Shown here one piece after another: positions 44,746-61,186 of a stretch of 64,000 nucleotides of DNA. How positions within the stretch are numbered: the first letter of the stretch is position 1; each line of letters opens with the position of its first letter. Source of the stretch: Hyphomicrobiaceae bacterium (GTDB taxonomy: Bacteria > Pseudomonadota > Alphaproteobacteria > Rhizobiales > Aestuariivirgaceae); the NCBI GenBank assembly GCA_900298995.1, contig OMIC01000040.1:163511-227510 (forward strand). The letters are read 5' to 3'. Under the pieces are notes generated by a model. The model was not told where the DNA came from, ran no database searches, and worked only from the letters and a program-made list of their open reading frames with translations. The position numbers were made by a program, and so were the translations under genes.

Positions 44746-45873
<1,128 letters not shown>

Positions 45874-47414: not shown

Positions 47415-49379
47415 TCAGGCCGAGCTGATGCGGGCGACGCCATAGGGTCCGAGGGCTATGGCGGTGAGCCGCCTCACCTGCTCGCCATCGCGCGAGAAGG
47501 CGTCCGGATCGGTGGCGATGCGCCGGAAGTTCGCCTCTGCGAGGCAATGGATGGTGGCCGCCCCCGGAAGCCCTGTGACTTTCACCGTGCGGGGCGCGGC
47601 CGTGAGATTTGCAAGCCAGAGTTCCCGCCCGGTTGCCGATCGATATGCGAGCGCGGCGATGCCCTGAGGATCGCCGCAGACGGTCTCAAGCCGCCTGTTG
47701 CCGCTCGCCGGGGCAAGGCCCGCGACGAGATGGTAGACGGGATGGACAAGCGCCTTCGCGTCATCATACCAGGGCTGGGCGACGTCTGCCCGGCGATGAA
47801 TGAGGCCCTGCGGTCCGGTGAGCGCGCCAAGCGCGATGCTGGCAAGCCCTTCCTCCGCAAAGCCGGCCACGAGACCGAGGTTCCATGCCGCCGCGAACAG
47901 ACCGCGCTGCCGCGGGTCCATGCCGGCGAGGCAGATGCGCGCATTGTCGGGATTGCCGGCCACGGCAGCACCATAGGGATTGGCGCGGGCGGCGATGGCT
48001 GAGGGTCCGAGATGATAGGGCAGCCGCCCGGTCATGGCGCGCACCGAGGCCGCAATGGACGGGATCGACTGCAGGGTCTCCATGACGGAGATGTCGTCTG
48101 CGGCGTGAACGATCGGGCAGACACTGTGGGTCACGAAATCGAACAGGCCGCGCGGCAGCGGCTTGCGGTTCAACTCGGTGAAATAGGAGAGCATGCCGCC
48201 ACCCACCGCCACGCCGGGAAACGCCTGACGCACGGCGGCGGCCATGTCGGCATAGTCCGGGCCCCAGGGACGCGGGGTGCCCGGCTGGAAGGACGCGAGG
48301 TCGTGGGCCTGGGTGATCACGATGGCATCCGGCACATAGGCGGCGGCCTGCATCTCGGCGGCGATCGCCGCCACTTCCTGACGCGCCGGGGCCTTGGCCG
48401 GCAGAATCATCTCAAGGGTCGAGCGGGCACCGGACTTCGCACGCAGTTCTCGGAAGGCCGCCGCCGCAGCGCGCTGTCCGGGAAGACGGCCATCGATCTG
48501 ACAGACGAGATGGGCGGCCCGCAGCCGCGCGACGAGATCCGCCGTCTCGACGGCGTGGCCGGCCTCCAACATCGGAACGCCGACGCCGATCTGCGGGATG
48601 CGGCCGCGCACGCCGCCGACCTCGAGGCTGACCGCCGCATCGGGGGCCGCCGCCCTGCGCCGGGCGGGCTTGCCCGAAATGGTGACGGTGATCGTCTGCG
48701 TGAAGGGCGTGTCCTTGCGGACAGTGTAGGGCCAGGGGTCGAGAAGCGAGCAGACATAGGTCTTGTAGGAGGCATCCATCCAGTTGCGATGATCCTCCAT
48801 CTCGAACTTGTTGCCCTCCATCAGCACACTCGCTGTGACGCCCGGCGCCACGGTGTGCGTCAGCGCGCGGATGTCGAAGATCGGCTGGCCGGGACTGATG
48901 AGCCGCGGAAAGCGGCCCTTGCGCCGCTTGCCACTGGTGTGGAGGATCTCGACGGGTTCACCGGCAACACCTGCCAGTGGATGCAGCACGACAAATCCCG
49001 TGCGGTTGGTCAGGAAGTCGGTCAGGGGCGTGGCAGTGGCCGAAAAGCGGACCTCGCCATCGGAGCGACCTTCGATGATCGCGGCATAGCGAATGGCCTG
49101 GGTCTCATCACGGCAGGTGGCGGTGTACCGCACCGTGAAGCTGTCACGGGCCTGGCGGATCTTCAGGCCCTCGATCACCGGCGCATAGGTGTTCCAGTTC
49201 CTGTCGCGTACCAGATAGGCGACGCCGCGCAGGACTTCCCTGCCGCCATGGCGGATGTAGCGCAGCGCGCCATTGTCGAACATGGCGGTGATGGGGCCGG
49301 CAGAAAGAATGCGCCGCTTCGGCTCCGGTACATTCGTTCCCGTCAGCCTGACGGCACGGGTGAGGACATTTGCTGCCAT
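47415..49379 (-). CDS. apnL: ApnL-like sugar-acid lactonase (D-apionate lactonase family)
   Basis: A 654-residue protein with no signal peptide. The N-terminal half has a run I recognise from the D-apionate lactonase family: FLVRDRNWNTYAPVIEGL, LTDFLTNRTGFVVLHPLAGVAG, DIRALTH and EMEDHRNWMDASYKTYV. The middle resembles a TIM barrel (VGVPMLEAGH, HSVCPIVHAADDISVMET) and the end a beta-sandwich. ApnL opens D-apionolactone to D-apionate; this substrate is inferred from family likeness and from the Gfo/Idh gene at 59300. The ATG at 49379 has AGGAG about 7 bases upstream. An Lrp regulator is 103 bp upstream on the same strand. Confidence 0.65.
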   Translation of the reverse strand: MAANVLTRAVRLTGTNVPEPKRRILSAGPITAMFDNGALRYIRHGGREVLRGVAYLVRDRNWNTYAPVIEGLKIRQARDSFTVRYTATCRDETQAIRYAAIIEGRSDGEVRFSATATPLTDFLTNRTGFVVLHPLAGVAGEPVEILHTSGKRRKGRFPRLISPGQPIFDIRALTHTVAPGVTASVLMEGNKFEMEDHRNWMDASYKTYVCSLLDPWPYTVRKDTPFTQTITVTISGKPARRRAAAPDAAVSLEVGGVRGRIPQIGVGVPMLEAGHAVETADLVARLRAAHLVCQIDGRLPGQRAAAAAFRELRAKSGARSTLEMILPAKAPARQEVAAIAAEMQAAAYVPDAIVITQAHDLASFQPGTPRPWGPDYADMAAAVRQAFPGVAVGGGMLSYFTELNRKPLPRGLFDFVTHSVCPIVHAADDISVMETLQSIPSIAASVRAMTGRLPYHLGPSAIAARANPYGAAVAGNPDNARICLAGMDPRQRGLFAAAWNLGLVAGFAEEGLASIALGALTGPQGLIHRRADVAQPWYDDAKALVHPVYHLVAGLAPASGNRRLETVCGDPQGIAALAYRSATGRELWLANLTAAPRTVKVTGLPGAATIHCLAEANFRRIATDPDAFSRDGEQVRRLTAIALGPYGVARISSA

Positions 49380-49482
49380 GATCGGCTCCTGACTGCGCTT
49401 GGCAATCTCGCTGCTTCGGAGGCTGCAGATGAACGCAGGGACGCGGGCAGTGTCAACCACCGTTATCGGAGACTGCGGCGGC

Positions 49483-49950
49483 TCAGGAAATTCGAGCAAG
49501 CCCGGTCTTCACGCGGCGCAGCGGGATCGAACTCTCGATTGACGCAACACCGGGAACCTTGGTGAAGCGGCCCACCAGAAAGCGTTCGAACTCCGCGAGA
49601 CCCCGCGTCGAGACCCGCAGGAGATAGTCCCGGTTTCCGGTCATCAGCCAGCAGTCCACGACCTCCGGAAAGGCGCGGATGGCCGCCTCGAACTTCGCCA
49701 GGGCGCTGTCGACCTGCCTGTCGAGTTTCACAGAGACGAAGACCGAAAAGCCGAAGCCGAGCTCAACCTCGTCAATCAGCGCCGCATAGCCGCTGATGAT
49801 GCGGGCTTCCTCGAGCAGGCGCACCCGGCGTGCCACGGCGGAGGCCGAGAGCCCCACGCAGTCGGCGAGTTCGTTGATGGTCGTGCGCCCGTCCTCCTGC
49901 AGGATTCGCAGGATCGCCATGCTGGTCTTGTCCGGTGATGTGGAAATCAT
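49483..49950 (-). CDS. Lrp/AsnC-family transcriptional regulator
   Basis: A 155-residue feast/famine regulator. The N-terminal HTH (about 8-60) has LQEDGRTTINELADCVGLSASAVARRVRLLEEARII. The C-terminal RAM ligand-binding domain contains VSVKLDRQ, FPEVVDCWLMTGNRDYLLRV and a terminal IPLRRVKTG. It starts at the ATG at 49950, with a TTG just before as an alternative. It is divergent from the transketolase/E1-like gene, the usual layout for an Lrp protein that controls its neighbour and itself in response to an amino or keto acid. Confidence 0.92.
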   Translation of the reverse strand: MISTSPDKTSMAILRILQEDGRTTINELADCVGLSASAVARRVRLLEEARIISGYAALIDEVELGFGFSVFVSVKLDRQVDSALAKFEAAIRAFPEVVDCWLMTGNRDYLLRVSTRGLAEFERFLVGRFTKVPGVASIESSIPLRRVKTGLARIS

Positions 49951-50068
49951 CAATGAAACTCTGTTTTTTCGCGATAGTCACCAATATATCTCATTCCATT
50001 CGCCAGAAAAGTTAAAATCTCCGAAGGTTCCGGACCAAGCTCGGTCAGGAAGCGGAGGAGCTTTCACG
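49951..50068. promoter_or_regulatory. AT-rich divergent control region between lrp-like and transketolase-like genes
   Basis: This 118-bp gap is richer in A/T than its surroundings. A TATATT (complement of 49983-49988) fits a -10 for the regulator and TAAAAT at 50013-50018 fits a -10 for the enzyme gene. -35 elements are weak in both directions. A run of six T residues and imperfect ACT...TTTTC...GCGA repeats could be Lrp-type sites. GGAGGAG near 50055-50061 is the enzyme's ribosome-binding site. Confidence 0.4.
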
Positions 50069-52450
50069 ATGGAACCCACGAATCTGCGCCATCTCGCATG
50101 CATCGAGCGCCGCCTGCTCTGGCTGTCGCACTGGATGATCCATCATGCCAATCACATCCGCCCCCGGGAGGACGCGATCAAGATTGGGGGGCATCAGGCC
50201 TCTTCGGCATCGATGGTGTCGATCATGACGGCGCTCTATTTCTCCGCGCTGCGGCCACAGGACCGCGTGGCCGTGAAACCGCATGCCGGGCCGGTCTTCC
50301 ATGCCATCCAGTATCTGATGGGACGCCAGACGCGCGAAGCCATGGAGGACTTCAGGGGCTTCGGCGGCGTGCAGAGTTATCCGAGCCGGACAAAGGATAC
50401 CGATGACGTGGATTTCTCGACTGGCTCGGTTGGCCTCGGCGTGGCGATCACGTCCTTCGCGGCACTGGTTCAGGATTACATCCGGGCCAAGCCATGGGGC
50501 CCGGCGGGGCCTGCCGGGCGCATGATCGCCCTTGTCGGGGATGCGGAACTGGATGAGGGCAATGTCTATGAAGCCCTGCAGGAGGGGTGGAAGAATGATC
50601 TGCGCAATTGCTGGTGGATCATCGACTATAATCGTCAGTCGCTCGACGGCATCGTGCATGAGGGCCTGTGGAGCCGCATCGAGAAGATCTTCGATGCCTT
50701 CGGCTGGGATGTCGTGCGCCTCAAGCATGGGCGGTTGCAGAGAGAGGCTTTTTCCGAGCCCGGCGGAGATGCGCTGAGGGACTGGATCGATCGCTGTCCC
50801 AATCCGCTCTACTCGGCCTTGATCTACATGGGGGGTGCGGCCTGGCGCGAACGGCTGCTGAATGACCTCGGCGATCAGGGTCCGGTCTCGGCGCTGCTGG
50901 CCCGACGCAGCGATGCCGCACTCGCGGAACTCATGGAAAATCTGGGGGGCAATTGTGTGGCGACGATGGCCGAGGCCTTTGCCGCCGTCGAAACCGAGCG
51001 GCCCGTCTGCTTTCTGGCTTATACGATCAAGGGCTGGGGCACGCCCCTTGCCGGACACAAGGACAATCATGGCGGGCTGATGACCAGCGGCCAGATGGCG
51101 GACTGGCAGATCAGGATGGGCGTGCCGGCGGGACAGGAATGGGACCTCTTCGCCGGCGTTGCGGACAAGGCCGCGCTCGAAGCATTTCTTGAGACAGTGC
51201 CCTTCTTCAGGGCTGGCGCACGGCGGCTCGCGGACCATGGGCTTGGCGTGCCTGGCATCAGCACGCCGCAGGAGCGCGAAATCTCGACACAGGCCGCCTT
51301 CGGCAAGATTCTCGACGGGCTGGCCAGGGGCGACAGCGAACTGGCCGCGCGCATTCTGACCATGTCGCCCGATGTGACCGGCACCACCAGTCTCGGCCCC
51401 TGGGTGAACCGGCGGAGGCTGTTTGCGCGCGCCGCACGCGCCGACACATTCAGGCTGGAAAACATTGCCTCGACGGCGAAATGGGACTTCTCGCCGGAAG
51501 GCCAGCACATCGAGCTGGGCATCGCCGAAATGAACCTGTTCCTGCTCCTTGGTGCTGCGGGACTGGCGCATGCCCTGTTCGGAAAGCGGCTGATCCCCAT
51601 CGGAACTGTCTATGATCCCTTCGTGGCGCGCGGCCTCGATGCGATGAACTATGCCTGCTATCAGGATTCGCGCTTCATCATTGCCGGAACGCCCTCGGGC
51701 GTCACGCTCGCGCCCGAGGGGGGCGCGCATCAGTCCATCGCCTCGCCGCTGATCGGCATGGCACAGGACGGCATCGCCGCATTCGAGCCTGCCTTTGCAG
51801 ATGAACTGGCGCTGATCATGGGCTGGGCCTTCGACTATCTGCAGCGCAGCGGCGAGGGCGATCCCGATGAGCGCGACTGGCTGCGCGACGAGACGGGCGG
51901 CTCCGTCTATCTCCGGCTCAGCACCAACCCCGTGGCCCAGCCCGCGCGCCGCGATGACGCCGCGTTCCGACAAGGCGTCATCGATGGCGGATACTGGCTG
52001 CGCAAGCCAGGTCCAGGCTGTGAGGTGGTCATCGCCTATCAGGGCGTCATTGCTCCGGAAGCGATCGCTGCCGCCGGTCTGATCGCGGAGGCAAGACGCG
52101 ATGTCGGGGTTCTGGCCGTGACCTCCGCCGACCGGCTGAATGCCGGGTGGACAGCGGCGCAACGCGCCCGCGCCCGGGGCCAGCACACTGCCGTCTCGAC
52201 AGTCGAGCGCCTGCTTGCGGAGCTGCCACGGCATTGCAGCCTCGTCACCGTGATCGACGGCCATCCGGCGACGCTTGCCTGGCTTGGCGGTGTTCACGGG
52301 CACAGGACCATTCCGCTGGGTGTGGAGCATTTCGGGCAGACCGGCACGATCGGCGATCTCTACCGGCACTTCGGCATCTCGGCCGCCTGTATCGCTCAGA
52401 AGGCTGGCAGCCTCACGGCCGGCCAACCGGTGCTTGCCATTTCAGCCTGA
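50069..52450 (+). CDS. Thiamine-diphosphate enzyme: AceE/transketolase-like (MdeB type)
   Basis: A 793-residue TPP enzyme in the fused E1/transketolase layout. The PP domain has GGHQASSASMVSIM and the cofactor motif GDAELDEGNVYEALQEGWKNDLRN...DYNRQ (starting near residue 157). The Pyr domain has EGQHIELGIAEMNLFLLLGAAG, with the activating Glu, and PEGGAHQSIASPLIG. It is shorter than E. coli AceE (about 887) and has no E2 or E3 neighbours. AceE homologues paired with an Lrp regulator are known as MdeB/MdeR (2-oxobutyrate decarboxylation), so a 2-oxo-acid substrate is plausible. A transketolase role is the alternative. The ATG follows GGAGGAG. Confidence 0.8.
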   Translation: MEPTNLRHLACIERRLLWLSHWMIHHANHIRPREDAIKIGGHQASSASMVSIMTALYFSALRPQDRVAVKPHAGPVFHAIQYLMGRQTREAMEDFRGFGGVQSYPSRTKDTDDVDFSTGSVGLGVAITSFAALVQDYIRAKPWGPAGPAGRMIALVGDAELDEGNVYEALQEGWKNDLRNCWWIIDYNRQSLDGIVHEGLWSRIEKIFDAFGWDVVRLKHGRLQREAFSEPGGDALRDWIDRCPNPLYSALIYMGGAAWRERLLNDLGDQGPVSALLARRSDAALAELMENLGGNCVATMAEAFAAVETERPVCFLAYTIKGWGTPLAGHKDNHGGLMTSGQMADWQIRMGVPAGQEWDLFAGVADKAALEAFLETVPFFRAGARRLADHGLGVPGISTPQEREISTQAAFGKILDGLARGDSELAARILTMSPDVTGTTSLGPWVNRRRLFARAARADTFRLENIASTAKWDFSPEGQHIELGIAEMNLFLLLGAAGLAHALFGKRLIPIGTVYDPFVARGLDAMNYACYQDSRFIIAGTPSGVTLAPEGGAHQSIASPLIGMAQDGIAAFEPAFADELALIMGWAFDYLQRSGEGDPDERDWLRDETGGSVYLRLSTNPVAQPARRDDAAFRQGVIDGGYWLRKPGPGCEVVIAYQGVIAPEAIAAAGLIAEARRDVGVLAVTSADRLNAGWTAAQRARARGQHTAVSTVERLLAELPRHCSLVTVIDGHPATLAWLGGVHGHRTIPLGVEHFGQTGTIGDLYRHFGISAACIAQKAGSLTAGQPVLAISA

Positions 52451-52474
52451 TCCACCATCCTGTCGCCAACCGAA

Positions 52475-52500
52475 ATGGTATGACAGGTTACATGGTATGA
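52475..52500 (+). promoter_or_regulatory. Direct repeats ATGGTATGA upstream of the ABC importer promoter
   Basis: Two exact copies of ATGGTATGA start at 52475 and 52492, a 17-bp period. They sit immediately upstream of a TTGACA -35 box. FadR-type GntR regulators often bind GGTAT-containing sites, and such a regulator is encoded at 56354. Binding by that protein is inferred. Confidence 0.5.
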
Positions 52501-52508
52501 TCAACGCA

Positions 52509-52537
52509 TTGACAGCCCCAAAACGGCTTGTTAGCCT
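52509..52537 (+). promoter_or_regulatory. Promoter of the ABC importer operon
   Basis: A consensus TTGACA (52509-52514) is followed, after 17 bases, by TAGCCT (52532-52537). The binding-protein gene starts at 52601 with a GGGAGGA ribosome-binding site. The -10 is weak, consistent with a regulated promoter. Confidence 0.6.
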
Positions 52538-52600
52538 TCCCCGGTGAGTTGGTTCTGCCAAGAGAGATCGGCTCCAAGTCCAGAAAATGGGAGGAAATAC

Positions 52601-53647
52601 ATGAAGTTATTCAAGAGCAACCTGATCCTGGCGGCAATCGTGGCCGCTGCGGCATCAACCTCGGCGCTTGCCGCCGACAAGGTCGTCATTGGCTATTCGG
52701 CCCCGGCGCTGCTGGGTGGCCAGGGACAAATCCAGGCCGGCCTGCTGAACGGCGCGAAGGCCAAGGGCTGGGAGGTCGTCACCCTGACGTCCGGCGGTGA
52801 CGCCCAGAAGCAGCTCAACGACATCAACGACCTGATTGCCCAGAAGGTGGCGGCGATCGTTGCGGTTCCCGATGACAGCGCCGGCATCTGCCAGGCGGTG
52901 GCGGCGGCCAAGGAAGCCAAGATCCCCTTCTACACCATCGACCGCGCTCCGTCGGGCTGTGAAGTCGACATGGTCGTGCTGTCGGACAACTACCTGGCCG
53001 GCAAGCAGGCCGGCGAGGCCATGGCCGCCTTCCTCAAGGCGCGGCATGGATCCGTCAAGGGCAAGGTTCTCGAAATCACCGGCAACCTCGCCCAGAACGT
53101 CGCGCAGCTGCGCGGCGCCGGCTTCAACGACGTCATGAAGCAGTATCCCGAAGTCGAAGTCATCTCCAAGGTGGGCGACTGGGATGCATCGAAGGGCGTC
53201 GACATCGTGCGTGACGTGGTCTCGGCCCAGGCCGATCTCGACGGCATCTACATGCACTCGGACTGCGTCTACTCCACCGGCACGGTCCAGACGCTCAAGG
53301 AGCTCGGCAAGGACGCAGAATCCGGCAAGGACGGTCACATCTTCCTGGCCAGCGTCGATGCCTGTCTCGCCGCGCTCGAGCTGATGCGCGAGAACAAGTT
53401 CGATCACGCGTCCAATCAGCCCATTCCGGACTTCGGCGTCCTGGCGGCTGACTACATCGAGAAGAAGCTGAAGGGCGAGGAAATCGCTCCCGGCGAAGTG
53501 AAGCAGGATGGCGCCCTCTGGTCGCCCGCCCGCGTCGAGAAGGCTGATGTCGGCATGCAGCTCTTCCTCTCCACCACGCCCGTCAATTCCTCGAACATGA
53601 ATGACGAGCGCCTGTGGGGCAACATCGAGAAGAAGAACGGCGGCTGA
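52601..53647 (+). CDS. Ribose-type ABC importer periplasmic substrate-binding protein
   Basis: A predicted secreted binding protein of 348 residues with a Sec signal peptide (MKLFKSN...ASTSALAADK, cleavage near 25). It belongs to the Peripla_BP_4/RbsB group, with GYSAPALLGGQGQIQAGLLNGAKAKGW, IAVPDDSAGI, TIDRAP, VVLSDNYLAGKQAGEAM and YMHSDCVYSTGTVQ. Ligands of the group are pentoses, hexoses and polyols. Extra Cys residues lie near 90, 118, 229 and 263, which is unusual. It is first in an importer operon with an ATPase and permease; adjacent catabolic genes suggest a sugar or sugar alcohol. Confidence 0.92.
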   Translation: MKLFKSNLILAAIVAAAASTSALAADKVVIGYSAPALLGGQGQIQAGLLNGAKAKGWEVVTLTSGGDAQKQLNDINDLIAQKVAAIVAVPDDSAGICQAVAAAKEAKIPFYTIDRAPSGCEVDMVVLSDNYLAGKQAGEAMAAFLKARHGSVKGKVLEITGNLAQNVAQLRGAGFNDVMKQYPEVEVISKVGDWDASKGVDIVRDVVSAQADLDGIYMHSDCVYSTGTVQTLKELGKDAESGKDGHIFLASVDACLAALELMRENKFDHASNQPIPDFGVLAADYIEKKLKGEEIAPGEVKQDGALWSPARVEKADVGMQLFLSTTPVNSSNMNDERLWGNIEKKNGG

Positions 53648-53669
53648 TCCGCCTGACGACCGAATGACG

Positions 53670-53703
53670 GCGGGGCGCGGCGGTCTTCCTCACCGCGCCC
53701 CGC
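53670..53703 (+). promoter_or_regulatory. 11-bp GC hairpin between binding-protein and ATPase genes
   Basis: GCGGGGCGCGG (53670-53680) pairs perfectly with CCGCGCCCCGC (53693-53703) around a 12-base loop. No T tract follows, and the operon continues. Such stems after binding-protein genes typically protect the upstream mRNA or lower read-through, giving excess binding protein. Confidence 0.6.
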
Positions 53704-53742
53704 AGCCTGCGGGCCAATGCAAGAGCCGAGTGGAGAATGGTG

Positions 53743-55275
53743 ATGGACAGCGCCTCCGAGACGCCTGTCGTCGAAATGCTGGACATCGTGAAGGTCTTTC
53801 CGGGCGTGCGCGCGCTGGACAATGTCTCCTTCACGGTCCGCCGCGGACAGATTCACGCCCTGCTCGGCAAGAACGGTGCGGGCAAATCCACACTGATGCA
53901 TGTGCTGACCGGGCTCTATGCTCCCGACTCCGGAACGATCCGCATCCGCGGCACCGTTCATGAAAATCTCAATACGGCACGCGCCAAGCAGGCCGGCATC
54001 GCGCTCGTCTCGCAGCACGCCAAGTACATTCCAGGCCTGAGCATCGCCGAGAACGTTTATTGCGGCATGCTGCCGATGAAGGCCGGCGGGTTCGTCGACT
54101 GGAAGAAGATGAATCGCGACGCGCATGAGAAGCTCTCGCACTTCGGCCTTGATCTCGACGTCACGCGGCTCATGGAAGACACGACCGTCGCCGAACGCCA
54201 GATGATCGAAATCGCCCGCGCGCTGTTTGCCGACGCCAGCGTCATCATTCTCGACGAGCCCACCGCGCCGCTGCCCAAACATGATGTGGCCAAGCTCTTC
54301 GAATTCGTCCGCCGCCAGCGCGAACGTGGTGCATCCTTCATCTATATCTCGCATTATCTCGAGGAAATCTTCGAGGTCGCCGATCATGTGACCGTGATGC
54401 GCAATGGCGCCGTCACCGGTACATCGGCCGTCAGGGACATCACCCAGCAGGAGCTGATCCGCCTCATCAGCGGCGCCAATGTCGAACGCTACCGCAGGGC
54501 GGGCGGCAACATCGGGAAGCCGGTTCTGGAAATCAGGAAGCTGGCGCGGCCCGGCGTCTATTCCGGCATCGACCTGACACTCCATGCCGGCGAGGTGGTG
54601 GGCATCACGGGCCTGGAAGGCAGCGGACCCGGCGAACTGGCGCGCGGCCTGTTCGGCCTTGAGCCGCTGGGCGCGGGCGACATCCGGCTGCAGGGCAAGC
54701 CCTACAGCGCCGCAAGCCCCATCGAGGCGCTGGCGCAGGGGCTCGCCTATCTTCCGCGCGACCGCCACGGCCTCGGCATTGTCGCGATCCGCAGCGTGCG
54801 CGACAACATCTCGCTTTCGGTGCTGAAGCGTCTGCAGAGCCTCGTGGGCCTCATCGATGGCGGCAGCGAACGCAAGCTCGCCGAAGACTACATCGAGGCG
54901 CTCGGCATCAAGACCCCCTCGATCAATACCGCGGTCGAAAACCTCAGCGGCGGCAACCAGCAGAAAGTGGTGGTGGCCAAGCTTGCCGCCACGGAGCCCA
55001 GGGTTCTGGTTCTCGACGAGCCCACCCAGGGTGTTGATGTCCAGGCGAAGGTCGACCTTCTGCGCATCGTCGACCAGCTGAGCCAGCGGGGGGTGGCGGT
55101 CGCCGTCGTTTCCGATGAATTGAACGAGCTGATGGACATCTGCGACAGGATCGTCGTGTTCTACAGGGGCAGGATCATCCGCGAGTTCCGGAAGGGCCAG
55201 GACACAATCACGACGGCGCGGCTTCTGGCCGCGATCGAAGGCGAGATGGGGGAGAAAGCCGATGCAACTGTCTAA
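53743..55275 (+). CDS. Ribose-type ABC importer ATP-binding protein (two ABC domains)
   Basis: A 510-residue RbsA/XylG-like ATPase. The first domain has Walker A GKNGAGKSTLMHVL, the signature region TVAERQMIEIARALF and Walker B VIILDEPTAPL. The second has a degenerate Walker A (GLEGSGPGELARGLFG), signature LSGGNQQKVVVAKL and Walker B VLVLDEPTQGV. One degenerate site is normal in this family. I chose the ATG at 53743 (MDSASE) with GGAG 7 bases upstream; an ATG two codons earlier is too close to the site. It overlaps the permease gene by 14 bases. Confidence 0.94.
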   Translation: MDSASETPVVEMLDIVKVFPGVRALDNVSFTVRRGQIHALLGKNGAGKSTLMHVLTGLYAPDSGTIRIRGTVHENLNTARAKQAGIALVSQHAKYIPGLSIAENVYCGMLPMKAGGFVDWKKMNRDAHEKLSHFGLDLDVTRLMEDTTVAERQMIEIARALFADASVIILDEPTAPLPKHDVAKLFEFVRRQRERGASFIYISHYLEEIFEVADHVTVMRNGAVTGTSAVRDITQQELIRLISGANVERYRRAGGNIGKPVLEIRKLARPGVYSGIDLTLHAGEVVGITGLEGSGPGELARGLFGLEPLGAGDIRLQGKPYSAASPIEALAQGLAYLPRDRHGLGIVAIRSVRDNISLSVLKRLQSLVGLIDGGSERKLAEDYIEALGIKTPSINTAVENLSGGNQQKVVVAKLAATEPRVLVLDEPTQGVDVQAKVDLLRIVDQLSQRGVAVAVVSDELNELMDICDRIVVFYRGRIIREFRKGQDTITTARLLAAIEGEMGEKADATV

Positions 55276-56317
55276 ACATGTTCCAGCGTTACTCGATCAT
55301 CTGATCTGGGTGATCCTTGTCGCCGTGTTCATATTCTTCATGACCCAGTCGCCGGTGTTCCTGTCATCGACAAACATCACCAACATCCTGTCGGCAGCGG
55401 CGATCCTCGGCATTCTCGTCGTCGGACAGACATTCGTGCTGATCACGGGGAATTTCGATCTCTCCACGGAATCGACACTCGGACTGGCCGGCCTCATCGG
55501 CATGTTCCTGATCGTTCCGGCCACCGCGCCCTACTGGGGCGGCGGCATCATGCTCAACCCCTATATCTCCATCGTGGTGCTGCTGCTGATGGGCGCCATC
55601 GTCGGCTACATCATCGGCGCGCTGATCACCATCGGCAAGATGAACAACTTCATCGTCACCCTCGCGATGCTGCTGATCCTGCGCGGCCTGATCATGGCTT
55701 TCACCAAGGGAACGCCGATCAGCGGACTTGGCTTTGCGCCAGCTGAAACCTATTTCTGGCTCGGTCACAAGGCGCTCTTCGAGATTCCCGGCGTGATCAA
55801 GATCCCGGTGGCCGTGGTCGCGACCGCCGCGGTCTTCGTGATCGGCCACATCATCCTCAATCACCGCCGGTTCGGCCGCGAGCTCTATGCTATCGGCGGC
55901 AACCGGCAGGCCGCGATTGCTTCAGGCATCGATGCCGATGCCCGCGTCCGCCAGGTCTATGTGCTCTCCGGTCTTCTCGCGGCACTGGGCGGCTGGATGC
56001 TGGCCGGACGGGTGGGGTCGATCCAGGCCAATCTGGGTGAAGGATACATCTTCACGGTCATGGCGGCAGCGGTCATCGGCGGCATCAGCCTTCAGGGCGG
56101 TCGCGGCACCATGCTCGGCGCGCTGGGCGGCGTGCTGCTCCTGTCCACCATCGACCGCGGCCTGAACCTGATGAACGTCAACGTGTTCTGGGTGAAGGTC
56201 ATCCAGGGCCTCATCATCATGCTGGCGATGTTCATCGATGCGCAGCGCGTCCGCTTCCGGTCCTTCGAGAAGGTCAGCCAGGAGCCGGCGGGCGGGCAGC
56301 CCGCGGCCTCAAACTGA
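55262..56317 (+). CDS. Ribose-type ABC importer permease
   Basis: A 351-residue RbsC-like integral membrane protein with about 9-10 helices. TNITNILSAAAILGILVVGQTFVLITGNFDLS is followed by the coupling-helix motif RFGRELYAIGGNRQAAIASGI and GISLQGGRGTMLGALGGVLLLSTIDRGLNLM, all typical of the BPD_transp_2 family. It probably forms a homodimer and docks onto the preceding ATPase. Its start lies inside that gene. A GntR regulator gene follows 36 bp downstream in the same direction. Confidence 0.94.
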   Translation: MQLSKHVPALLDHLIWVILVAVFIFFMTQSPVFLSSTNITNILSAAAILGILVVGQTFVLITGNFDLSTESTLGLAGLIGMFLIVPATAPYWGGGIMLNPYISIVVLLLMGAIVGYIIGALITIGKMNNFIVTLAMLLILRGLIMAFTKGTPISGLGFAPAETYFWLGHKALFEIPGVIKIPVAVVATAAVFVIGHIILNHRRFGRELYAIGGNRQAAIASGIDADARVRQVYVLSGLLAALGGWMLAGRVGSIQANLGEGYIFTVMAAAVIGGISLQGGRGTMLGALGGVLLLSTIDRGLNLMNVNVFWVKVIQGLIIMLAMFIDAQRVRFRSFEKVSQEPAGGQPAASN

Positions 56318-56353
56318 CGGGAGAGGGGGCGCCTCCGCCGGGATCACCGCGGC

Positions 56354-57142
56354 ATGACCGGAAAGACAGCAACAGAAAGCCAGCGCGCCGTGCAACCAGC
56401 CCAGCAACAGAGCCGAGATGGCAGACAGATGCTGTTCACAAGCATCAAGCGGCGGAAGGTCCATCAGGACGTCGCCGAGCAGATCGAGAACCAGATTCTC
56501 TCGGGCCTGCTGCCGGAGGGAACGAGCCTGCCGTCTGAGCGGAGCCTGATGGAAGCCTTCAATGTCGGGCGTCCGGCGATCCGCGAGGCCCTTCTGCTTC
56601 TGCAGAGAAGCGGCTTCATCAGGATCACGAATGGGGGCCGGACGGTCGTGACCCGGCCGACGGCTGCCAACCTCCTCGAGCAGATTTCGGGCTCGGCGCG
56701 ATATCTGCTGTCATCGGAGGGTGGCGAGAAGGCCTTTCAGGATGCACGTCGCATCTTTGAATCCGCCATCGCGCGAAACGCCGCCGAGTTCGCAACCGAC
56801 AAGGACATTGCGCGGCTTGGTGAGTATCTGAAGATCAATCGCGAGGCTCTGGGCGACATGGATGCCTTCGAGCGATCTGATATCGCCTTTCATCTGGCCC
56901 TGGCGGAGATCGGCGGCAATCCGGTGTTTTCGGCCCTTCATGCGGCGATTGCCGAGTGGCTGGCCCTGCAGCGGCATATCTCACTTCGTGTTCCCGGCGT
57001 CGCCCTCAGCGCCTATCGCAGCCATGAGGAGATCCACGAAGCCGTGGCCGCGAGAAATCCCGAGGGCGCATGGCACGCCATGGACCGCCACCTGAGACAG
57101 GTCGCCCAGCAGTTTGAACAGGGCAAGGGCAGGCCAGCATGA
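56354..57142 (+). CDS. GntR-family (FadR subfamily) transcriptional regulator
   Basis: A 262-residue regulator. After a variable N-terminal tail of about 30 residues, the winged helix (about 33-100) shows QDVAEQIENQILSGLLPEGTSLPSERSLMEAFNVGRPAIREALLLLQRSGFI. The C-terminal all-helical FCD domain (about 125-255) carries metal/ligand His candidates in FHLALAEIGGNP and SHEEIHEAV. It sits inside the importer-catabolic operon and is the obvious candidate to control it, perhaps through the ATGGTATGA repeats. A start at residue 26 (MLFTS) is an alternative. It overlaps the next gene (ATGA). Confidence 0.92.
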   Translation: MTGKTATESQRAVQPAQQQSRDGRQMLFTSIKRRKVHQDVAEQIENQILSGLLPEGTSLPSERSLMEAFNVGRPAIREALLLLQRSGFIRITNGGRTVVTRPTAANLLEQISGSARYLLSSEGGEKAFQDARRIFESAIARNAAEFATDKDIARLGEYLKINREALGDMDAFERSDIAFHLALAEIGGNPVFSALHAAIAEWLALQRHISLRVPGVALSAYRSHEEIHEAVAARNPEGAWHAMDRHLRQVAQQFEQGKGRPA

Positions 57143-57456
57143 GCCCGCCTTTTGTGATCCTCGTCGAGATGAATGTCCGGTCTGCCGAGCTGATGCCGGA
57201 GTTCCGGCGCCTCATGGATGACAACGCCAGGCTGTCCGTGAAGAACGAGCCCGGATGCCGGCGATTTGACGTGGTTGTGCCCGACGACAGCGGCACGCAG
57301 ATCCTTCTCTACGAAATCTATGATGATGAAGCGGCTTTCGCCGCGCATCTGAAGACCGAGCATTTTCTGACCTTCCATGCGGCCTCCGACCACCTTCTGG
57401 AGAGCAGGCGCATCCGGCGGGGCGTGCTGGTCTGTGAAGCATCCGCCGGGACATGA
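57139..57456 (+). CDS. Antibiotic-biosynthesis-monooxygenase (ABM/YgiN-like) domain protein
   Basis: A small 105-residue ferredoxin-fold protein of the ABM superfamily, with FVILVEMNVRSAELMPEFRRLM, EPGCRRFDVV and LLYEIYDDEAAFAAHLKTEHF. Family members act as cofactor-free monooxygenases or as mutarotase-like/LsrG-like isomerases. In a sugar-catabolic operon, a role in epimerising or isomerising a sugar phosphate or lactone is at least as likely as monooxygenation; this is inference. It overlaps gntR by 4 bases. Confidence 0.82.
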   Translation: MSPPFVILVEMNVRSAELMPEFRRLMDDNARLSVKNEPGCRRFDVVVPDDSGTQILLYEIYDDEAAFAAHLKTEHFLTFHAASDHLLESRRIRRGVLVCEASAGT

Positions 57457-57473
57457 GCACAAAGGATCGTCAA

Positions 57474-58262
57474 ATGAAGCAATCCTCCCTGAAGAAGATG
57501 ACCCAGACCCGTGCTCCGAAATTCGGCCATTATGTGGGCGAGTTCGCAACCCCGGGGATCGGGCATATCGTGGCTTCGGCGCGGTGCGATTTCGTGTTCT
57601 TCGACATGGAGCATTCGGGCCTCAGCCTCGAGACGCTCAAGAGCGCAGTCCGGTATTTCGAAGCCGGGGGCGTTTCGGTCCTGGTGAGATCGCCCTGCAA
57701 GGACTACGACATGATCGCGCGCATCGCCGATGCCGGTGCCGAGGGCATCATGGCTCCGATGGTCAAGGATGCCGCAGAGGCCGAAATGGTGGTGCGGCAT
57801 CTCAAATATCCACCCGCCGGCAAGCGGGGCGTGGCGCTCGGCATCGCCCATGACAACTATTTCTCGGGCGACATTCCCGTTGACGAGCGGTTGCGGCTGT
57901 CCAATGAGCGGATGACCTTCTTCGCTCTCATCGAGACGCGCGAGGGCGCGGAGAACGCCGATGAAATCGCCCGGACACCGGGAGTCGACTGTCTGTGGAT
58001 CGGTCACTTCGATCTCAGCGCATCGCTGGGCATACCGGGAAAATTCGACCATCCGGACTATGTCGCAGCTTTCGACAAGATCGTGGCCGCCGCGAAGAAA
58101 CACAATCGCTCGCTGGGACGGCTGGTCATGACGCCCGCCGAAGGCATTGCCGACATCAGGCGCGGTTTCGACTTCTGCTGCTACGGAACCGACACATCGC
58201 TCTATCAGCGGGCGCTGAAGGCAGGAATTTCCGAACTCCGGAGTGCATGCGATGGCAAGTGA
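57474..58262 (+). CDS. HpcH/HpaI-family class II aldolase
   Basis: A metal-dependent aldolase/citrate-lyase-like protein of 262 residues. FFDMEHSGLSLETL has the catalytic His47, VLVRSP has Arg72, FFALIETREGAENADEI has the metal-binding Glu154 and IGHFDLSASLG has Asp180. These enzymes cleave 2-oxo acids such as 4-hydroxy-2-oxo compounds to pyruvate or hydroxypyruvate plus an aldehyde. I prefer the ATG at 57474 because AAAGGA lies 7 bases upstream. An ATG at 57453 that overlaps the previous stop is possible and adds 7 residues. It overlaps the next gene by 11 bases. Confidence 0.88.
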   Translation: MKQSSLKKMTQTRAPKFGHYVGEFATPGIGHIVASARCDFVFFDMEHSGLSLETLKSAVRYFEAGGVSVLVRSPCKDYDMIARIADAGAEGIMAPMVKDAAEAEMVVRHLKYPPAGKRGVALGIAHDNYFSGDIPVDERLRLSNERMTFFALIETREGAENADEIARTPGVDCLWIGHFDLSASLGIPGKFDHPDYVAAFDKIVAAAKKHNRSLGRLVMTPAEGIADIRRGFDFCCYGTDTSLYQRALKAGISELRSACDGK

Positions 58263-59307
58263 GGATTTCCGCGTCGTCCTGTCCGGTGATTTCATCAACC
58301 CCGACGGATCGCCGAAGTTTCCGGACTTTGATCTGGCTCCCCTGCGCGCGACGCCGGGCCTGAGTGTCGGGTTCCTGCCCGAGTCAGACCCTGTGCGTGC
58401 GGATCTCCTCGAGGATGTGGATGCGCTGATCCTTCTAGGATGCAAGTTCACGAAGGACAGCATCCCCGCGTCGGGCCGGCTCAGTGTCGTCGCGCGCTTT
58501 GGCGTTGGCTATGATTCAGTCGATGTCGAGGCCTGCACCGCTCACGACATTGCCGTCTGCATCACGCCGGACGGTGTTCGCCGTCCGGTCGCCGTGGCCA
58601 TTCTCACCATGATGCTGGCACTCACCGGAAAGCTGCTGATCAAGGACCGCATGACGCGTCTGGGGCCTTCAGGTTTTTCCGTCGCGCGCAATGAACACAT
58701 GGGCGTGGGGCTGGTGGGGCGCACACTCGGATCCATCGGCATCGGCAACATCGGCGCCGAAATGTTCCGGCTCGCGAAGCCTTTAGGGATGCGGTTCCTG
58801 GCGCATGACCCCTTCACATCGAAGGCGATCGCGGACGAGTTGGGAGTCACGCTTGTTGACAGAGAAACGCTGTTCCGTGAGTCGGACGTTCTCACCGTCA
58901 ATTGCCCCCTCACCGAGGAGACGCATCACCTCGTCAATTCAAGCCTGCTCTCCCTGATGAAGCCGACGTCCTTCGTCATCAATACCGCACGGGGGCCGAT
59001 CATCGATCAGGATGCGCTGACGGACATTCTCCAGCGCGGAGGCATCGCAGGTGCGGGTCTCGACGTGTTCGAGGGCGAACCGCTGAACGCCGATCATCCG
59101 CTGTTCGCGCTCGACAATGTCATCGTGACGCCACATGCCCTGTGCTGGACTGACCAGTGCTTCGCCGGCATCGGAGCAGCTGATGTGGCATCGGTGCTGG
59201 CCATCCATGCCGGACGCCAGCCACCCGGTCTTCTCAACAGGACGGTGATGACGCAGCCCGGCTTCGCGAGAAAGCTGCAGCGCCACGCGGCACGTCACCT
59301 CAGGTGA
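58252..59307 (+). CDS. D-isomer-specific 2-hydroxyacid dehydrogenase
   Basis: A NAD(P)-dependent 2-hydroxyacid dehydrogenase of 351 residues. The Rossmann motif is VGRTLGSIGIGNIGAEMFRL. The catalytic triad is visible as Arg in NTARGPII, Glu in DVFEGEPL and His in TPHALCWTD (roughly residues 247, 274 and 295). It belongs to the phosphoglycerate dehydrogenase/hydroxypyruvate reductase group. Beside an HpcH aldolase it may interconvert a 2-oxo acid and a D-2-hydroxy acid of the same pathway. The ATG at 58252 is in an overlap with the aldolase. The 3' end overlaps by 8 bases the convergent Gfo/Idh gene. Confidence 0.88.
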   Translation: MASEDFRVVLSGDFINPDGSPKFPDFDLAPLRATPGLSVGFLPESDPVRADLLEDVDALILLGCKFTKDSIPASGRLSVVARFGVGYDSVDVEACTAHDIAVCITPDGVRRPVAVAILTMMLALTGKLLIKDRMTRLGPSGFSVARNEHMGVGLVGRTLGSIGIGNIGAEMFRLAKPLGMRFLAHDPFTSKAIADELGVTLVDRETLFRESDVLTVNCPLTEETHHLVNSSLLSLMKPTSFVINTARGPIIDQDALTDILQRGGIAGAGLDVFEGEPLNADHPLFALDNVIVTPHALCWTDQCFAGIGAADVASVLAIHAGRQPPGLLNRTVMTQPGFARKLQRHAARHLR

Positions 59308-60346
59308 CGTGTGCCCTGGGCTTGACCGAGGCATGGCTTGCCGCAGCCTCATAGGCGGCTTCGACGAGGGCATAGGTCTTGAGATTGTCCTCGCCCGAGG
59401 TGTCGGCTGCCAGACCGAGTCTGAAGCGTTCGAACATGTGGCGATTGGTGTGCAGCACGGCCTCCTGCGAGACGTGCCACGGACGGCTCGTCCAGTGCAG
59501 CAGCGGCCCGCCGACATGGTCCTCGAAGGTGAGGCCCTGGGTCGTCACCGTCAGTTTCTCGCCCTTTGAGAGAATCAGGGAGCCCTCATCGCCCTCGATT
59601 TCCAGAAGCGTTTCCGGGAACGGATCATCGCCGCGCCTGGCCGCATAGGTCGCCTCGACGACAGAGACGGCGCCGGATGTGTGGCGCATCATGATGGTGG
59701 CCGTGTCCTCAGCCCTGATCTTCGGATTGCGCTTCTGTGTTTCACAGGACAGGCGCTCCACTTCGCCGAGGAAGAAGCGTGCCAGGTCCAGGATATGGAT
59801 GCCCACATCCTGGATCACGAGCTTCTCTTCTTCCGCGAGATAGGGTTGGCCACGATAGACATCGAAACCGGTCCGCCAGGACAGCCGTGCCCAGCGTGGT
59901 GTGCCGATCGTGCCCTGCGCGAGCACTTTCTTCACGGCCCTCATGGACGTCGAAAACCGGAAGTTCTCGTGGACGGCGAGCCAGGCATTGTGCTGACGGG
60001 CCTTTTCCACGATGGCGATGCAATCCTCCCAGGTCGGCGCAAAGGGCTTCTGGACGATGGCGGCGATGCCACGTTCTGCGGCAATGGCAGCGAGCGGGCG
60101 GTGCGTGTCCATCCGCGTTGCGATGTCGAGAAGATCGAGCGGCACAGCCTCGAGCATCGCCTCGATGCGCGAGAAATGGGGCACGCCGAACTTCACGCCG
60201 GCAGCCTTTGCCCTTTCGGGATCCATGTCGCAGACCGCCGCAAGGATGGCGCCCTCCGGTCGCAGATCCGCCCAGGCATGCAGATGGTTCTGGGCGTAAA
60301 ATCCACAACCCACCATACCGACTGCCACTGTCTGCCGCTGTTGCAT
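59300..60346 (-). CDS. Gfo/Idh/MocA oxidoreductase resembling D-apiose dehydrogenase
   Basis: A 348-residue NAD(P)-dependent sugar dehydrogenase. The N-terminal Rossmann motif is VGMVGCGFYAQNHLHAW. EKP-like QKPFAPTWEDC supplies the catalytic Lys, and IQDVGIHILDLARFFLG holds the Asp/His active-site pair. FYAQNHLHAW, QKPFAPTWEDC, VHENFRF and DNLKTYALVEAAY match what I remember of D-apiose dehydrogenase (ApsD), which makes D-apionolactone. The ApnL-like gene 10 kb away supports this, but closely related Gfo/Idh enzymes act on other sugars. It is convergent with the 2-hydroxyacid dehydrogenase and downstream of the SDR gene. Confidence 0.8.
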   Translation of the reverse strand: MQQRQTVAVGMVGCGFYAQNHLHAWADLRPEGAILAAVCDMDPERAKAAGVKFGVPHFSRIEAMLEAVPLDLLDIATRMDTHRPLAAIAAERGIAAIVQKPFAPTWEDCIAIVEKARQHNAWLAVHENFRFSTSMRAVKKVLAQGTIGTPRWARLSWRTGFDVYRGQPYLAEEEKLVIQDVGIHILDLARFFLGEVERLSCETQKRNPKIRAEDTATIMMRHTSGAVSVVEATYAARRGDDPFPETLLEIEGDEGSLILSKGEKLTVTTQGLTFEDHVGGPLLHWTSRPWHVSQEAVLHTNRHMFERFRLGLAADTSGEDNLKTYALVEAAYEAAASHASVKPRAHVT

Positions 60347-60433
60347 GGTCCTTCACCCCTGCCTGTTTGAGAAGGAGTGTGCGGTCATGCATGCGAGGAG
60401 TCAATGCTCCGATCACCTGTGCGGCAGATGGTG

Positions 60434-61186
60434 CTAGCGCCCGCCCGAGACGTTGAGGATGGCGCCCGTGACGTAGGACGCAGAGGACGACAGGAGCCAG
60501 ACGGCGGCCTCTGCGATCTCATCGGCAGTGCCCGCCCGCTTCATGGGAAGATTGGCGGCGAAATCCGTGGCAAAGCTCGCGCCATGGTGTGCGGCATGGA
60601 TCGGCGTGTCGATGACTCCGGGACGGATCGCGTTCACGCGGATACCCTCGGTGGCGACCTCGCGTGCAAGCCCGATAGTAAGGGAGTCGAGGCCGCCCTT
60701 GCTGGCCGCGTAATGCACTTCATGGGGCAGCCCGCCGAGAACGGCAGCCATGGAGGATATGTTGAGGATGACGCCGCCACGGCCACCACGCGCGGTCGAC
60801 ATGCGCCGTACGGCTTCCCGGCAGCAGTAGATGGGGCCAGCCAGATTGACCGCCAGCACGCGGTTTACGGTTGCTGCATCGACCTCTGCGACCGGTTTGA
60901 CGGCGATGATCCCGCCGGCATTGTTCACAAGACAGTCCAGCGGACCGAAGGCGGCATCGACCTTCTCGAACATCGTGACAATTTGCGCTTCGTTGCCCAT
61001 GTCAGCCTGAAGGGCCATGGCTTCGCCCCCATCCGCGCGGATTTCCGCACAGACGGCGTCGGCCTCCTCGCGGTGCGTGCCGTAATGCACGGCAACGGCC
61101 CCGCCCCTGCGGCCGAGCGCCCGGGCAATCGCTGCGCCAATGCCCCGGCTGGCGCCTGTCACCAGTGAAACGGTTCTGACGGTCAT
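60434..61186 (-). CDS. Short-chain dehydrogenase/reductase (FabG-like)
   Basis: A 250-residue classical SDR. The cofactor motif is VTGASRGIGAAIA, NNAG is present, the catalytic Ser lies in LNISSMA and YxxxK is YAASKGG. The C-terminal PGVIDT and YVTGAILNVSGG are typical. NADP preference is suggested by charged residues after beta-2 but is not certain. It lies 87 bp upstream of the Gfo/Idh gene on the same strand, so it may reduce or oxidise an intermediate of that pathway. A palindrome lies just upstream of its ribosome-binding site. Confidence 0.9.
   Translation of the reverse strand: MTVRTVSLVTGASRGIGAAIARALGRRGGAVAVHYGTHREEADAVCAEIRADGGEAMALQADMGNEAQIVTMFEKVDAAFGPLDCLVNNAGGIIAVKPVAEVDAATVNRVLAVNLAGPIYCCREAVRRMSTARGGRGGVILNISSMAAVLGGLPHEVHYAASKGGLDSLTIGLAREVATEGIRVNAIRPGVIDTPIHAAHHGASFATDFAANLPMKRAGTADEIAEAAVWLLSSSASYVTGAILNVSGGR

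Follow-up and report, generated by a model that had tools for sequence, protein, structure and literature searches.

We tentatively read the gene cluster at positions 47415..61186 of the window, the 64,000-nucleotide stretch of contig OMIC01000040.1 from a Hyphomicrobiaceae bacterium analysed here, as a locus for the degradation of D-apiose via D-apionate. The predicted lower route, an alternative to the standard one, would pass through 2-oxo-apionate, which an aldolase would split into formaldehyde and 2-oxo-tetronate; we put the probability of this reading at about 0.4. The cluster encodes a ribose-type importer, an ApsD-like dehydrogenase, an ApnL-family lactonase, a D-2-hydroxyacid dehydrogenase (HADH) and a class II aldolase. 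The genes named in a preliminary description of this DNA are all real, being long open reading frames whose GC3 is of the coding type, located at or close to the positions first assigned to them, and their families were confirmed. Two genes had been overlooked, an Lrp/AsnC regulator and an AceE/transketolase-like ThDP gene resembling MdeB. The features are:

47415..49379, minus strand: ApnL-family lactonase (D-apionolactonase-like), 654 residues, from the NF049900 profile and its place in the tree
49483..49953, minus strand: Lrp/AsnC-family regulator (PF01037, AsnC-type HTH), upstream of the lactonase gene on the same strand and divergent from the AceE-like gene
about 50069..52450, plus strand: AceE/transketolase-like ThDP enzyme (MdeB-like; TK below), with Transketolase_N and PDH_E1_M; the mechanical reading frame starts at 49796 and overlaps the Lrp gene
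52476..52500, plus strand: predicted operator of the NanR-like GntR regulator, lying in front of the importer operon and made of GGTAT-type repeats
52601..53647, plus strand: periplasmic sugar-binding protein (CUT2, RbsB-like; PF13407)
53737..55275, plus strand: CUT2 ABC transporter ATPase (family profiles)
55262..56317, plus strand: CUT2 ABC transporter permease (family profiles)
56354..57142, plus strand: GntR/FCD regulator, NanR-like (NF003011, 247.1 bits, below the cut-off of 260)
57139..57456, plus strand: ABM-fold protein, LsrG-like (PF03992); predicted ketol isomerase
57453..58262, plus strand: HpcH/HpaI class II aldolase (HpcH; PF03328, 110.8 bits, cut-off 25); predicted 2-oxo-apionate retro-aldolase
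58243..59307, plus strand: D-2-hydroxyacid dehydrogenase (HADH; PF02826, 182.5 bits, cut-off 25.1); predicted D-apionate 2-dehydrogenase
59300..60346, minus strand: Gfo/Idh/MocA dehydrogenase, ApsD-like (5uhw match, alignment and tree)
60434..61186, minus strand: SDR-family dehydrogenase (NF004777, 297.1 bits, cut-off 383), upstream of the Gfo/Idh gene on the same strand

Lactonase, ApsD-like dehydrogenase and importer

The lactonase matches NF049900, the equivalog model of the D-apionate lactonase ApnL, over profile positions 2-593 of 595 with 616.1 bits, below the curated cut-off of 750, which is exceeded in none of 289 genomes of the class. ApnL-like genes are widespread: they occur in 9 of these 289 genomes, and the database holds 3798 such proteins at E 0.001. 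The protein has no match in the Pfam copy used and is assigned PF25837-PF25839 by the protein database. It is 44% identical to the ApnL of R. etli and 60-61% identical to the ApnLs of two loci that contain OiaX (L022, L023). In a quick tree, OiaX-linked ApnLs are dispersed among those linked to HpcH and HADH, so that lower pathways seem to have been exchanged or added around one lactonase.

The best PDB relative of the Gfo/Idh protein is 5uhw (340.9 bits, against 74.7 for the runner-up), and its identity to the ApsD-type protein of R. etli plasmid p42f is 47-48%. In an alignment of six ApsD-like sequences, which takes in ApsD-type proteins from two OiaX clusters, 101 columns are invariant, among them the motifs QKP, HENFR, QPY, D.GIH.LD.AR and W.S.PWH..QE, all kept in the window protein and probably part of the active site. 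In the tree, the window protein groups with those of Silicimonas and Boseongicola in a separate 100/100 clade, outside the ApsD-type clade of the OiaX clusters; long branches were flagged and the wider rooting is uncertain. Among 385 genomes of the class, four have a match to the window protein at E 1e-60, and 320 bits are exceeded only in the window's own genome, so the window type is rare in this sample. The SDR has no close homologue across 14 compared loci, the single match (33%) being in L023.

The upper part proposed in the preliminary description is thus borne out in family and motif resemblance, but both proteins fall outside the strict characterised groups, the lactonase by its score and the dehydrogenase by its separate clade. 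This weighs less because the ApnLs of two OiaX loci are so similar to the one in the window.

The importer region resembles that of related loci: the sugar-binding protein is 62-63% identical to its counterparts in Silicimonas and Boseongicola, and the permease and the GntR regulator are 65-69% and 66% identical to those of Boseongicola. A motif related to the predicted operator, TGGTATNNNAGGTATACCA, is found at the GntR gene in other loci. The pattern, which was derived from the site itself, has no second copy in the window, and isolated TGGTATGA-like words show no enrichment there (15 found against 18.5 expected). Co-regulation, earlier called unproven because the genes lie on both strands, gains a candidate operator before the plus-strand importer operon, but none was seen in the window before the Gfo/SDR or ApnL genes.

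Lower enzymes and proposed route

The later enzymes of the standard pathway had been described as unrecognisable in the locus, which holds, and the genome, 99.36% complete, also lacks those searched for at E 0.001. It has no match to NF043035, a model for OtnK that picks up OiaK-type kinases as well and that, as a control, was positive in 3 of 14 genomes, E. coli included; none to PF16896 (ApnO-type), which was positive in both control relatives; and none to NF042437 (OiaX). The absences reported here are those covered by these three models. The genome does encode a dihydroxyacetone (DHA) kinase and an OtnI-type protein (349.6 bits, cut-off 325).

In the aldolase, residues H54, R79, E161 and D187, presumably the catalytic ones of HpcH/HpaI aldolases, are the same in at least 97% of the 60 sequences compared, counting repeats; together with the Pfam score and the alignment with 2v5j, this places it in class II. 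HADH belongs to its family by the same kind of evidence: its presumed Arg-Glu-His triad (R250, E279, H298) is retained in at least 97% of 52 sequences, again counting repeats. YfaU, which belongs to the HpcH/HpaI aldolase family as well, joins pyruvate and formaldehyde according to PMC8461973 and PMC7918591. The sole NCBIfam match of the ABM protein is the LsrG-type isomerase model NF007791 (47.2 bits, below the cut-off of 135). Its homologues occur in 15 of 80 ApnL loci, every one of which also has HpcH and HADH. We rejected a proof that it is the only possible isomerase: OtnI-type proteins exceed their cut-off in 9 of 10 genomes of the genus, so the ABM protein is not required by elimination.

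Gene content, conservation and the searched absences are observed; from them we infer the substrate, every reaction and their order, as follows. The sugar would be taken up by the CUT2 importer, and the ApsD-like protein, given its homology and shared residues, would oxidise D-apiose to the 1,4-lactone, which the ApnL-like protein would by homology open to D-apionate. C2 of D-apionate has the D-glycerate configuration, and HADH may oxidise it to 2-oxo-apionate. HpcH would then cut C3-C4 of this 4-hydroxy-2-oxo acid, releasing one CH2OH arm as formaldehyde. For the isomerisation of the resulting 2-oxo-tetronate to 3-oxo-tetronate, the candidates are the LsrG-like ABM protein and the OtnI-type protein encoded elsewhere in the genome. 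In relatives, OtnK and OtnC would convert 3-oxo-tetronate to DHAP. As no OtnK was found in the window's genome, 3-oxo-tetronate would there be decarboxylated to dihydroxyacetone, the substrate of the DHA kinase, and the lower end of the route would depend on this loss of CO2 being spontaneous. A nearby glutathione-type formaldehyde dehydrogenase at 44728-45873 is not claimed as a pathway gene because it has no homologue above 41 bits near other ApnL loci; it was the one formaldehyde gene whose homologues were sought there.

The lower genes were surveyed in 80 ApnL loci, the best 80 among 120 that had been retrieved using an alignment of the branch to which the window's ApnL belongs. Aldolase and HADH are both present in 33 of the 80, one of them a Planctomycetota contig; among the 61 loci of at least 12 kb, 29 have both, 29 neither, two the aldolase and one HADH. 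The suggestion that the pair forms a different lower route thus agrees with how often it accompanies ApnL, but an ApsD-like gene is missing from 28 of the 33 loci, most of which lie beside a CUT1 importer. Seven pair-bearing loci also carry an ApnO-type gene, without OiaX, and 14 of the 19 ApnL loci with OtnK hold the pair. OiaX lies beside ApnL in four of the 80 loci. Two of these, L022 and L023, carry both lower gene sets, L023 with OiaK as well, and L045 has OiaX and the aldolase, which points to addition rather than clean exchange; the two sets would be redundant if both start from apionate. The Boseongicola loci L042 and L043 contain Gfo, ApnL, sugar-binding protein, permease, a weakly matched ATPase, GntR, ABM, HpcH, HADH and pieces of TK. 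A plasmid of Mesorhizobium INR15 keeps Gfo (62%), ABM, ApnL, CUT2 and OtnK/OtnC; its cluster has no match to HpcH or HADH and holds PanE-type, Zn-ADH and FAH genes, possibly their functional counterparts.

More generally, it is conceivable, though we think it rather unlikely, that this is a further formaldehyde-releasing D-apiose pathway, from apionate over 2-oxo-apionate to 2-oxo-tetronate and, by the ABM isomerase, to the tetronate hub or dihydroxyacetone, with exchangeable blocks around one lactonase: HADH or a PanE-type enzyme as the oxidant of apionate, aldolase or ADH with FAH to remove the C1 unit, and OtnK-OtnC or DHA kinase as the final part. If the predicted route is true, many bacteria of this ApnL branch use a formaldehyde-releasing pathway that annotation has missed, and HADH, the aldolase and the ABM protein, now named by family only, gain functions. 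For the PanE-type and FAH proteins of the Mesorhizobium cluster, the route also makes a prediction that can be tested.

Alternative readings

We regard it as unlikely that the cluster acts on an unbranched C4 sugar or lactone (D-erythrose, D-threose, erythronolactone or threonolactone). In that case the lactonase would yield a tetronate and HADH would oxidise C2; the aldolase would then split 2-oxo-tetronate, giving formaldehyde and hydroxypyruvate, the latter a possible substrate for reduction to D-glycerate by HADH. In L093 and L104 the neighbour of ApnL is a gene of the D-erythronate dehydrogenase type (DenD), and dehydrogenases for L-threonate or D-erythronate occur in OtnK/OtnC loci, which suggests that the lactones opened by some ApnL-like proteins are plain C4 ones. 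The best scores of HADH, all below cut-off, are with the models for glyoxylate reductase and phosphoglycerate dehydrogenase. Because D-apiofuranose is a 3-C-hydroxymethyl tetrofuranose, both kinds of substrate could be accepted by the enzymes. The 101 positions shared with ApsD-type proteins of two OiaX clusters, and the occurrence in OiaX clusters of ApnLs 60-61% identical to the window's, nevertheless argue for apiose, as does the rarity of free tetroses. D-apiose, according to PMC6302742, is a component of plant cell walls. We likewise doubt that the upper part alone serves D-apiose while HADH, aldolase and ABM protein belong to a separate acid-sugar or hydroxy-acid pathway that shares the importer operon. 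This would fit the 28 loci without ApsD-like genes, the OiaX genes beside the pair in L022 and L023, joined in L023 by OiaK, and the position of the candidate operator; HpcH also adjoins HADH in four of nine ApnL-less genomes examined, and together with the 28 loci this makes a broader role, or another acid, possible. The aldolase neighbours in ApnL-less genomes were uninformative (GST, AbrB-family, pentapeptide, AFG1-type, methylmalonyl-CoA mutase-type, NIR_SIR and MarR proteins). Against separate pathways speak the lack of all three searched lower apionate enzymes in the window's genome and the Planctomycetota contig, with HADH-HpcH-ApnL-Gfo-permease-SBP-ATPase on one strand.

It is very unlikely that TK is the true lower enzyme, decarboxylating 2-oxo-tetronate and joining the remainder to formaldehyde to give erythrulose. 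TK and Lrp also occur in related Rhodobacteraceae loci: Lrp is 61-64% identical to that of Silicimonas and Boseongicola ApnL loci, TK is 75% identical to its counterpart in two compared Silicimonas ApnL loci, and three short Silicimonas ApnL-Gfo contigs carry TK, two of them with Lrp. No ApnL locus examined has both TK and OtnK. However, TK is fragmented in Boseongicola and 78.9% identical to a Ruegeria pomeroyi protein adjoining Lrp and methionine gamma-lyase; relatives of 77-79% identity have these neighbours in Ruegeria and Leisingera and a different setting in Cereibacter. We therefore dropped TK as a replacement for OtnK/OtnC; it is apparently an MdeB-type 2-oxo-acid enzyme accompanied by its own regulator. 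Equally improbable is a reading in which the ApnL-like protein would be a glycoside hydrolase instead of a lactonase, in a cluster for glycoside breakdown. No PDB relative was found by sequence, and the predicted fold (pLDDT 71.6) resembles GH30 and GH86 glycosidases with TM-scores (query length) of at most 0.40 among the matches listed; CUT1 genes are present in 41 of the 80 ApnL loci. Yet the curated name of NF049900 is D-apionate lactonase, and the Gfo-ApnL-CUT2 set is that of the R. etli cluster.

Comparison with known systems

Our literature searches found nothing on apiose dehydrogenase, on apiose together with ApnL, or on MdeB. The oxidative D-apiose pathway, reportedly described by Carter et al. 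in 2018, is said to run ApsD-ApnL-ApnO-OiaK-OiaX. On R. etli p42f, an ApsD-type gene (638 bits for its protein against 5uhw) has CUT2 genes on one side and ApnL on the other; the same run of genes includes oiaX, a PGDH_C (ApnO-type) gene and one for a four-carbon acid sugar kinase. The window shares the NanR-type regulator, the CUT2 importer, the ApsD-type Gfo/Idh protein and ApnL with this system, whereas its genome is without a match to OtnK/OiaK-type kinase, ApnO type or OiaX, and its cluster instead has HADH, HpcH aldolase and ABM protein, with Gfo in a sister clade.

MdeB is presumably a 2-oxobutyrate dehydrogenase E1-like enzyme. The TK-Lrp pair found in the window is similar to the Ruegeria and Leisingera set, but no methionine gamma-lyase gene lies beside it. 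From the OtnK-OtnC tetronate pathway (LtnD, DenD, OtnI), the proposed route differs in that no OtnK was found in the window's genome; it shares the predicted 2-oxo/3-oxo-tetronate intermediate and an OtnI-type protein. The two L-rhamnose routes may be a precedent for alternative lower enzymes. The cluster has no dehydratase among its genes, so that, unlike in this analogy, a substrate other than a 3-deoxy acid is predicted; the likeness lies in the alternative enzymes, HpcH/HpaI in one lineage versus ADH and FAH hydrolase in Mesorhizobium INR15.

Layout of the cluster and its surroundings

The window carries a real, conserved module that is probably catabolic, and our verdict is that it is a variant of the oxidative D-apiose clusters in which the lower part is predicted to be replaced. 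The genome is alphaproteobacterial, 99.36% complete and comprises 2.99 Mb in 58 contigs. The left part of the cluster lies on the minus strand and consists of an ApnL-like lactonase followed by an Lrp regulator. On the plus strand, an AceE/transketolase-like enzyme (TK) precedes an apparent single operon for a sugar-binding protein (SBP), an ATPase, a permease, a GntR regulator, the small protein ABM, an HpcH/HpaI aldolase (HpcH) and a D-2-hydroxyacid dehydrogenase (HADH). At the right end, the Gfo/Idh dehydrogenase (Gfo) is again on the minus strand, with an SDR upstream of it. The genes and positions named in the preliminary description are borne out by open frames and family matches in the window, but the Lrp and AceE-like genes had been overlooked.

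Features in and beside the cluster are:
44728 to 45873, plus strand: glutathione-type formaldehyde dehydrogenase, roughly 1.5 kb past the end of the lactonase gene (600.4 bits to TIGR02818, whose cut-off is 543.95)
45877 to 47547, minus strand: long open frame that matches neither Pfam nor NCBIfam models at E 0.001, its mechanical start overlapping the ApnL end
52476 to 52500: GGTAT-type repeats preceding the first operon gene
61417 to 63767, minus strand: ArsJ organoarsenical efflux transporter (519.9 bits, cut-off 400) and ArsJ-associated GAPDH (527.6 bits, cut-off 450), directly adjoining the cluster

Near other ApnL loci, no homologue of the formaldehyde dehydrogenase was labelled above 41 bits.

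Of 187 loci, 17 have a motif related to the GGTAT-type repeats, TGGTATNNNAGGTATACCA, at their GntR gene (14 once the three repeated loci L164, L165 and L167 are removed). Its exact form is absent from the window, and TGGTATGA-like single words show no enrichment there (15 found, 18.5 expected). Upstream of ApnL, Gfo or SDR in the window, no repeat pair matched the pattern used for the 52476 to 52500 site, and co-regulation of the minus-strand genes therefore stays unproven.

Upper enzymes and related clusters

The lactonase and Gfo, which had been likened to ApnL and ApsD, both fall outside the strict characterised groups. With 616.1 bits, the lactonase stays under the 750-bit cut-off of the curated ApnL model, and in a tree whose wider rooting is uncertain, Gfo forms a separate clade with its Silicimonas and Boseongicola counterparts (support 100/100). 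The best PDB match of Gfo is 5uhw (340.9 bits, the next chain having 74.7), which we take to be ApsD and which matches the Gfo of the Rhizobium etli p42f cluster with 638 bits. Identity between the Gfo proteins of the window and R. etli amounts to 47% in the alignment and 48% by BLAST. On p42f, the Gfo gene is flanked by CUT2 importer genes and an ApnL homologue, in a run that also holds oiaX, a four-carbon acid sugar kinase (presumably OiaK) and a phosphogluconate dehydrogenase C-terminal protein (presumably ApnO), with an adjoining NanR regulator.

Loci of the window's own type occur in two Boseongicola stretches (L042 and L043), with Gfo, ApnL, SBP, permease, GntR, ABM, HpcH and HADH, and a weak ATPase match (114 bits). 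Their TK is in pieces, and they contain repeat copies of SBP and of a portion of Gfo, which reflects either a faulty assembly or duplication followed by decay. In Silicimonas, three short contigs carry Gfo-ApnL-TK and end before the remaining genes; Lrp is present on two of these contigs. A Planctomycetota contig (L086) has HADH-HpcH-ApnL-Gfo-permease-SBP-ATPase, all on one strand. The window SBP, permease, GntR, aldolase, HADH, Gfo and TK are 62-75% identical to their Boseongicola or Silicimonas counterparts; ABM reaches 45% against this locus type, and the ATPase has no comparable match. Because most genes thus match Silicimonas and Boseongicola but ApnL is closest to Aestuariivirga-type loci (67% to L066, against 45-46% to Silicimonas and Boseongicola), the cluster looks, from sequence identities, to have been assembled from two sources.

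The preliminary description had noted that the later standard enzymes are not recognisable in this locus. In the whole genome, profile searches at E 0.001 gave no match to NF043035 (the OtnK model, which picks up OiaK-type kinases as well), PF16896 (ApnO type) or NF042437 (OiaX). Since none of 14 control genomes was positive for PF16896, this search was repeated with two relatives known to have it, both of which were detected. The genome does contain a DHA kinase and an OtnI-type isomerase, the latter between folE-type and 3-oxoadipate:acetyl-CoA acetyltransferase-type genes.

The aldolase-dehydrogenase pair in ApnL loci

Public genomes were scanned with an alignment of 13 ApnL proteins from the window's branch, which yielded 120 confirmed stretches, and gene presence was scored with fixed score limits in the best 80. 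Among these 80, HpcH and HADH occur together in 33 loci, ABM in 15 (always accompanied by the pair), OtnK in 19 (14 of them with the pair), OiaX in 4, and an ApsD-like gene in 18, five of which also have the pair (L022, L023, L042, L043, L086). Once the 19 loci shorter than 12 kb are dropped, 61 remain, of which 29 have both genes, 29 neither, 2 the aldolase only and 1 HADH only (Fisher p 6.4e-14, no true probability as the loci are related). The commonest order, GntR-ABM-HpcH-HADH-CUT1 importer-ApnL, is matched by annotated plasmid records of Bradyrhizobium and Mesorhizobium ciceri; in the former, the small gene between GntR and the aldolase is annotated as a hypothetical protein. In some loci OtnK-OtnC comes after ApnL, and behind it a gene for L-threonate dehydrogenase (L018, L025, L033) or D-erythronate dehydrogenase (L030, L034, L082). 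Cultured relatives that carry the pair include Aestuariivirga litoralis and Bradyrhizobium iriomotense (CUT1 type).

Other settings of ApnL were also seen. Nine loci (L054, L060, L069-L074, L083) combine it with a CUT2 importer, Gfo and an aldo/keto reductase, with no HpcH/HADH or Oia match. In three Geminicoccaceae loci (L056, L057, L061) a QuiC-like protein adjoins ApnL, that of L061 comprising a xylose-isomerase-type barrel and an HPPD-like part. Paralogues were noted for ApnL in L095 (two) and for the aldolase in L097 (three, around a single ApnL).

The proposed route would lead from D-apiose via apionolactone, apionate and 2-oxo-apionate to formaldehyde and 2-oxo-tetronate, and on to dihydroxyacetone. 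Several observations count against it. Of the 33 loci with the pair, 28 lack an ApsD-like gene and seven have an ApnO-type gene without OiaX. Nine genomes without ApnL were examined, and four of these have HpcH next to HADH (L153, L154, L156, L158). The predicted ApnL fold (13 sequences, pLDDT 71.6) resembles GH30/GH86 glycosidases. In L093 and L104, ApnL stands with a CUT2 importer and a D-erythronate dehydrogenase-type gene, whose proximity suggests an erythronolactone function. The proposed route is compatible with all of these observations, but in their light D-apiose is no more than a candidate substrate.

Possible exchange or addition of lower pathways

A quick tree built from 59 ApnLs places those of the four OiaX loci and of R. 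etli at several points among HpcH/HADH-linked ones. On this tree the OiaX label (5 rows) takes 4 changes, and since a value as low arose in 85 of 500 shuffles, it is not clustered. The HpcH/HADH label (29 rows) is clustered, taking 7 changes, a value as low being reached in none of 500 shuffles. Two OiaX loci, L022 and L023, lie beside the window's group and also have HpcH and HADH; by the fixed score limits, L045 has HpcH without HADH and L058 neither. L022, L023 and L045 thus point to addition as much as exchange. Genome G292, in which one stretch (L165) has a Gfo sequence identical to that of L023, has a single ApnL match with both lower gene sets alongside.

The cluster of Mesorhizobium sp. 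INR15, found on two plasmid records (L184 and L187, one copy in pieces), retains a window-type Gfo (62%), ABM (49%), ApnL, CUT2, a NanR-like regulator, OtnK and an OtnC annotated in two pieces. No match to HpcH or HADH was found in it; it has PanE-type, MBL-fold, Zn-alcohol dehydrogenase and FAH genes.

Work on D-apiose catabolism describes a function of RuBisCO-like proteins (PMC6302742) and, in E. coli, a gene cluster that includes two transketolases and the kinase aplK (PMC13001218), and YfaU is described as working with formaldehyde and pyruvate (PMC7918591, PMC8461973). An aldolase-type apionate route was not met in the open-access literature searched. The substrate of PanE is 2-oxopantoate, which is similar to 2-oxo-apionate, and L-rhamnose breakdown has known alternatives that use FAH with a dehydrogenase or an aldolase. 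By analogy, the window and INR15 clusters may be read as two ways of oxidizing C2 and two of removing C4, which would leave as a one-carbon unit (formaldehyde or formate).
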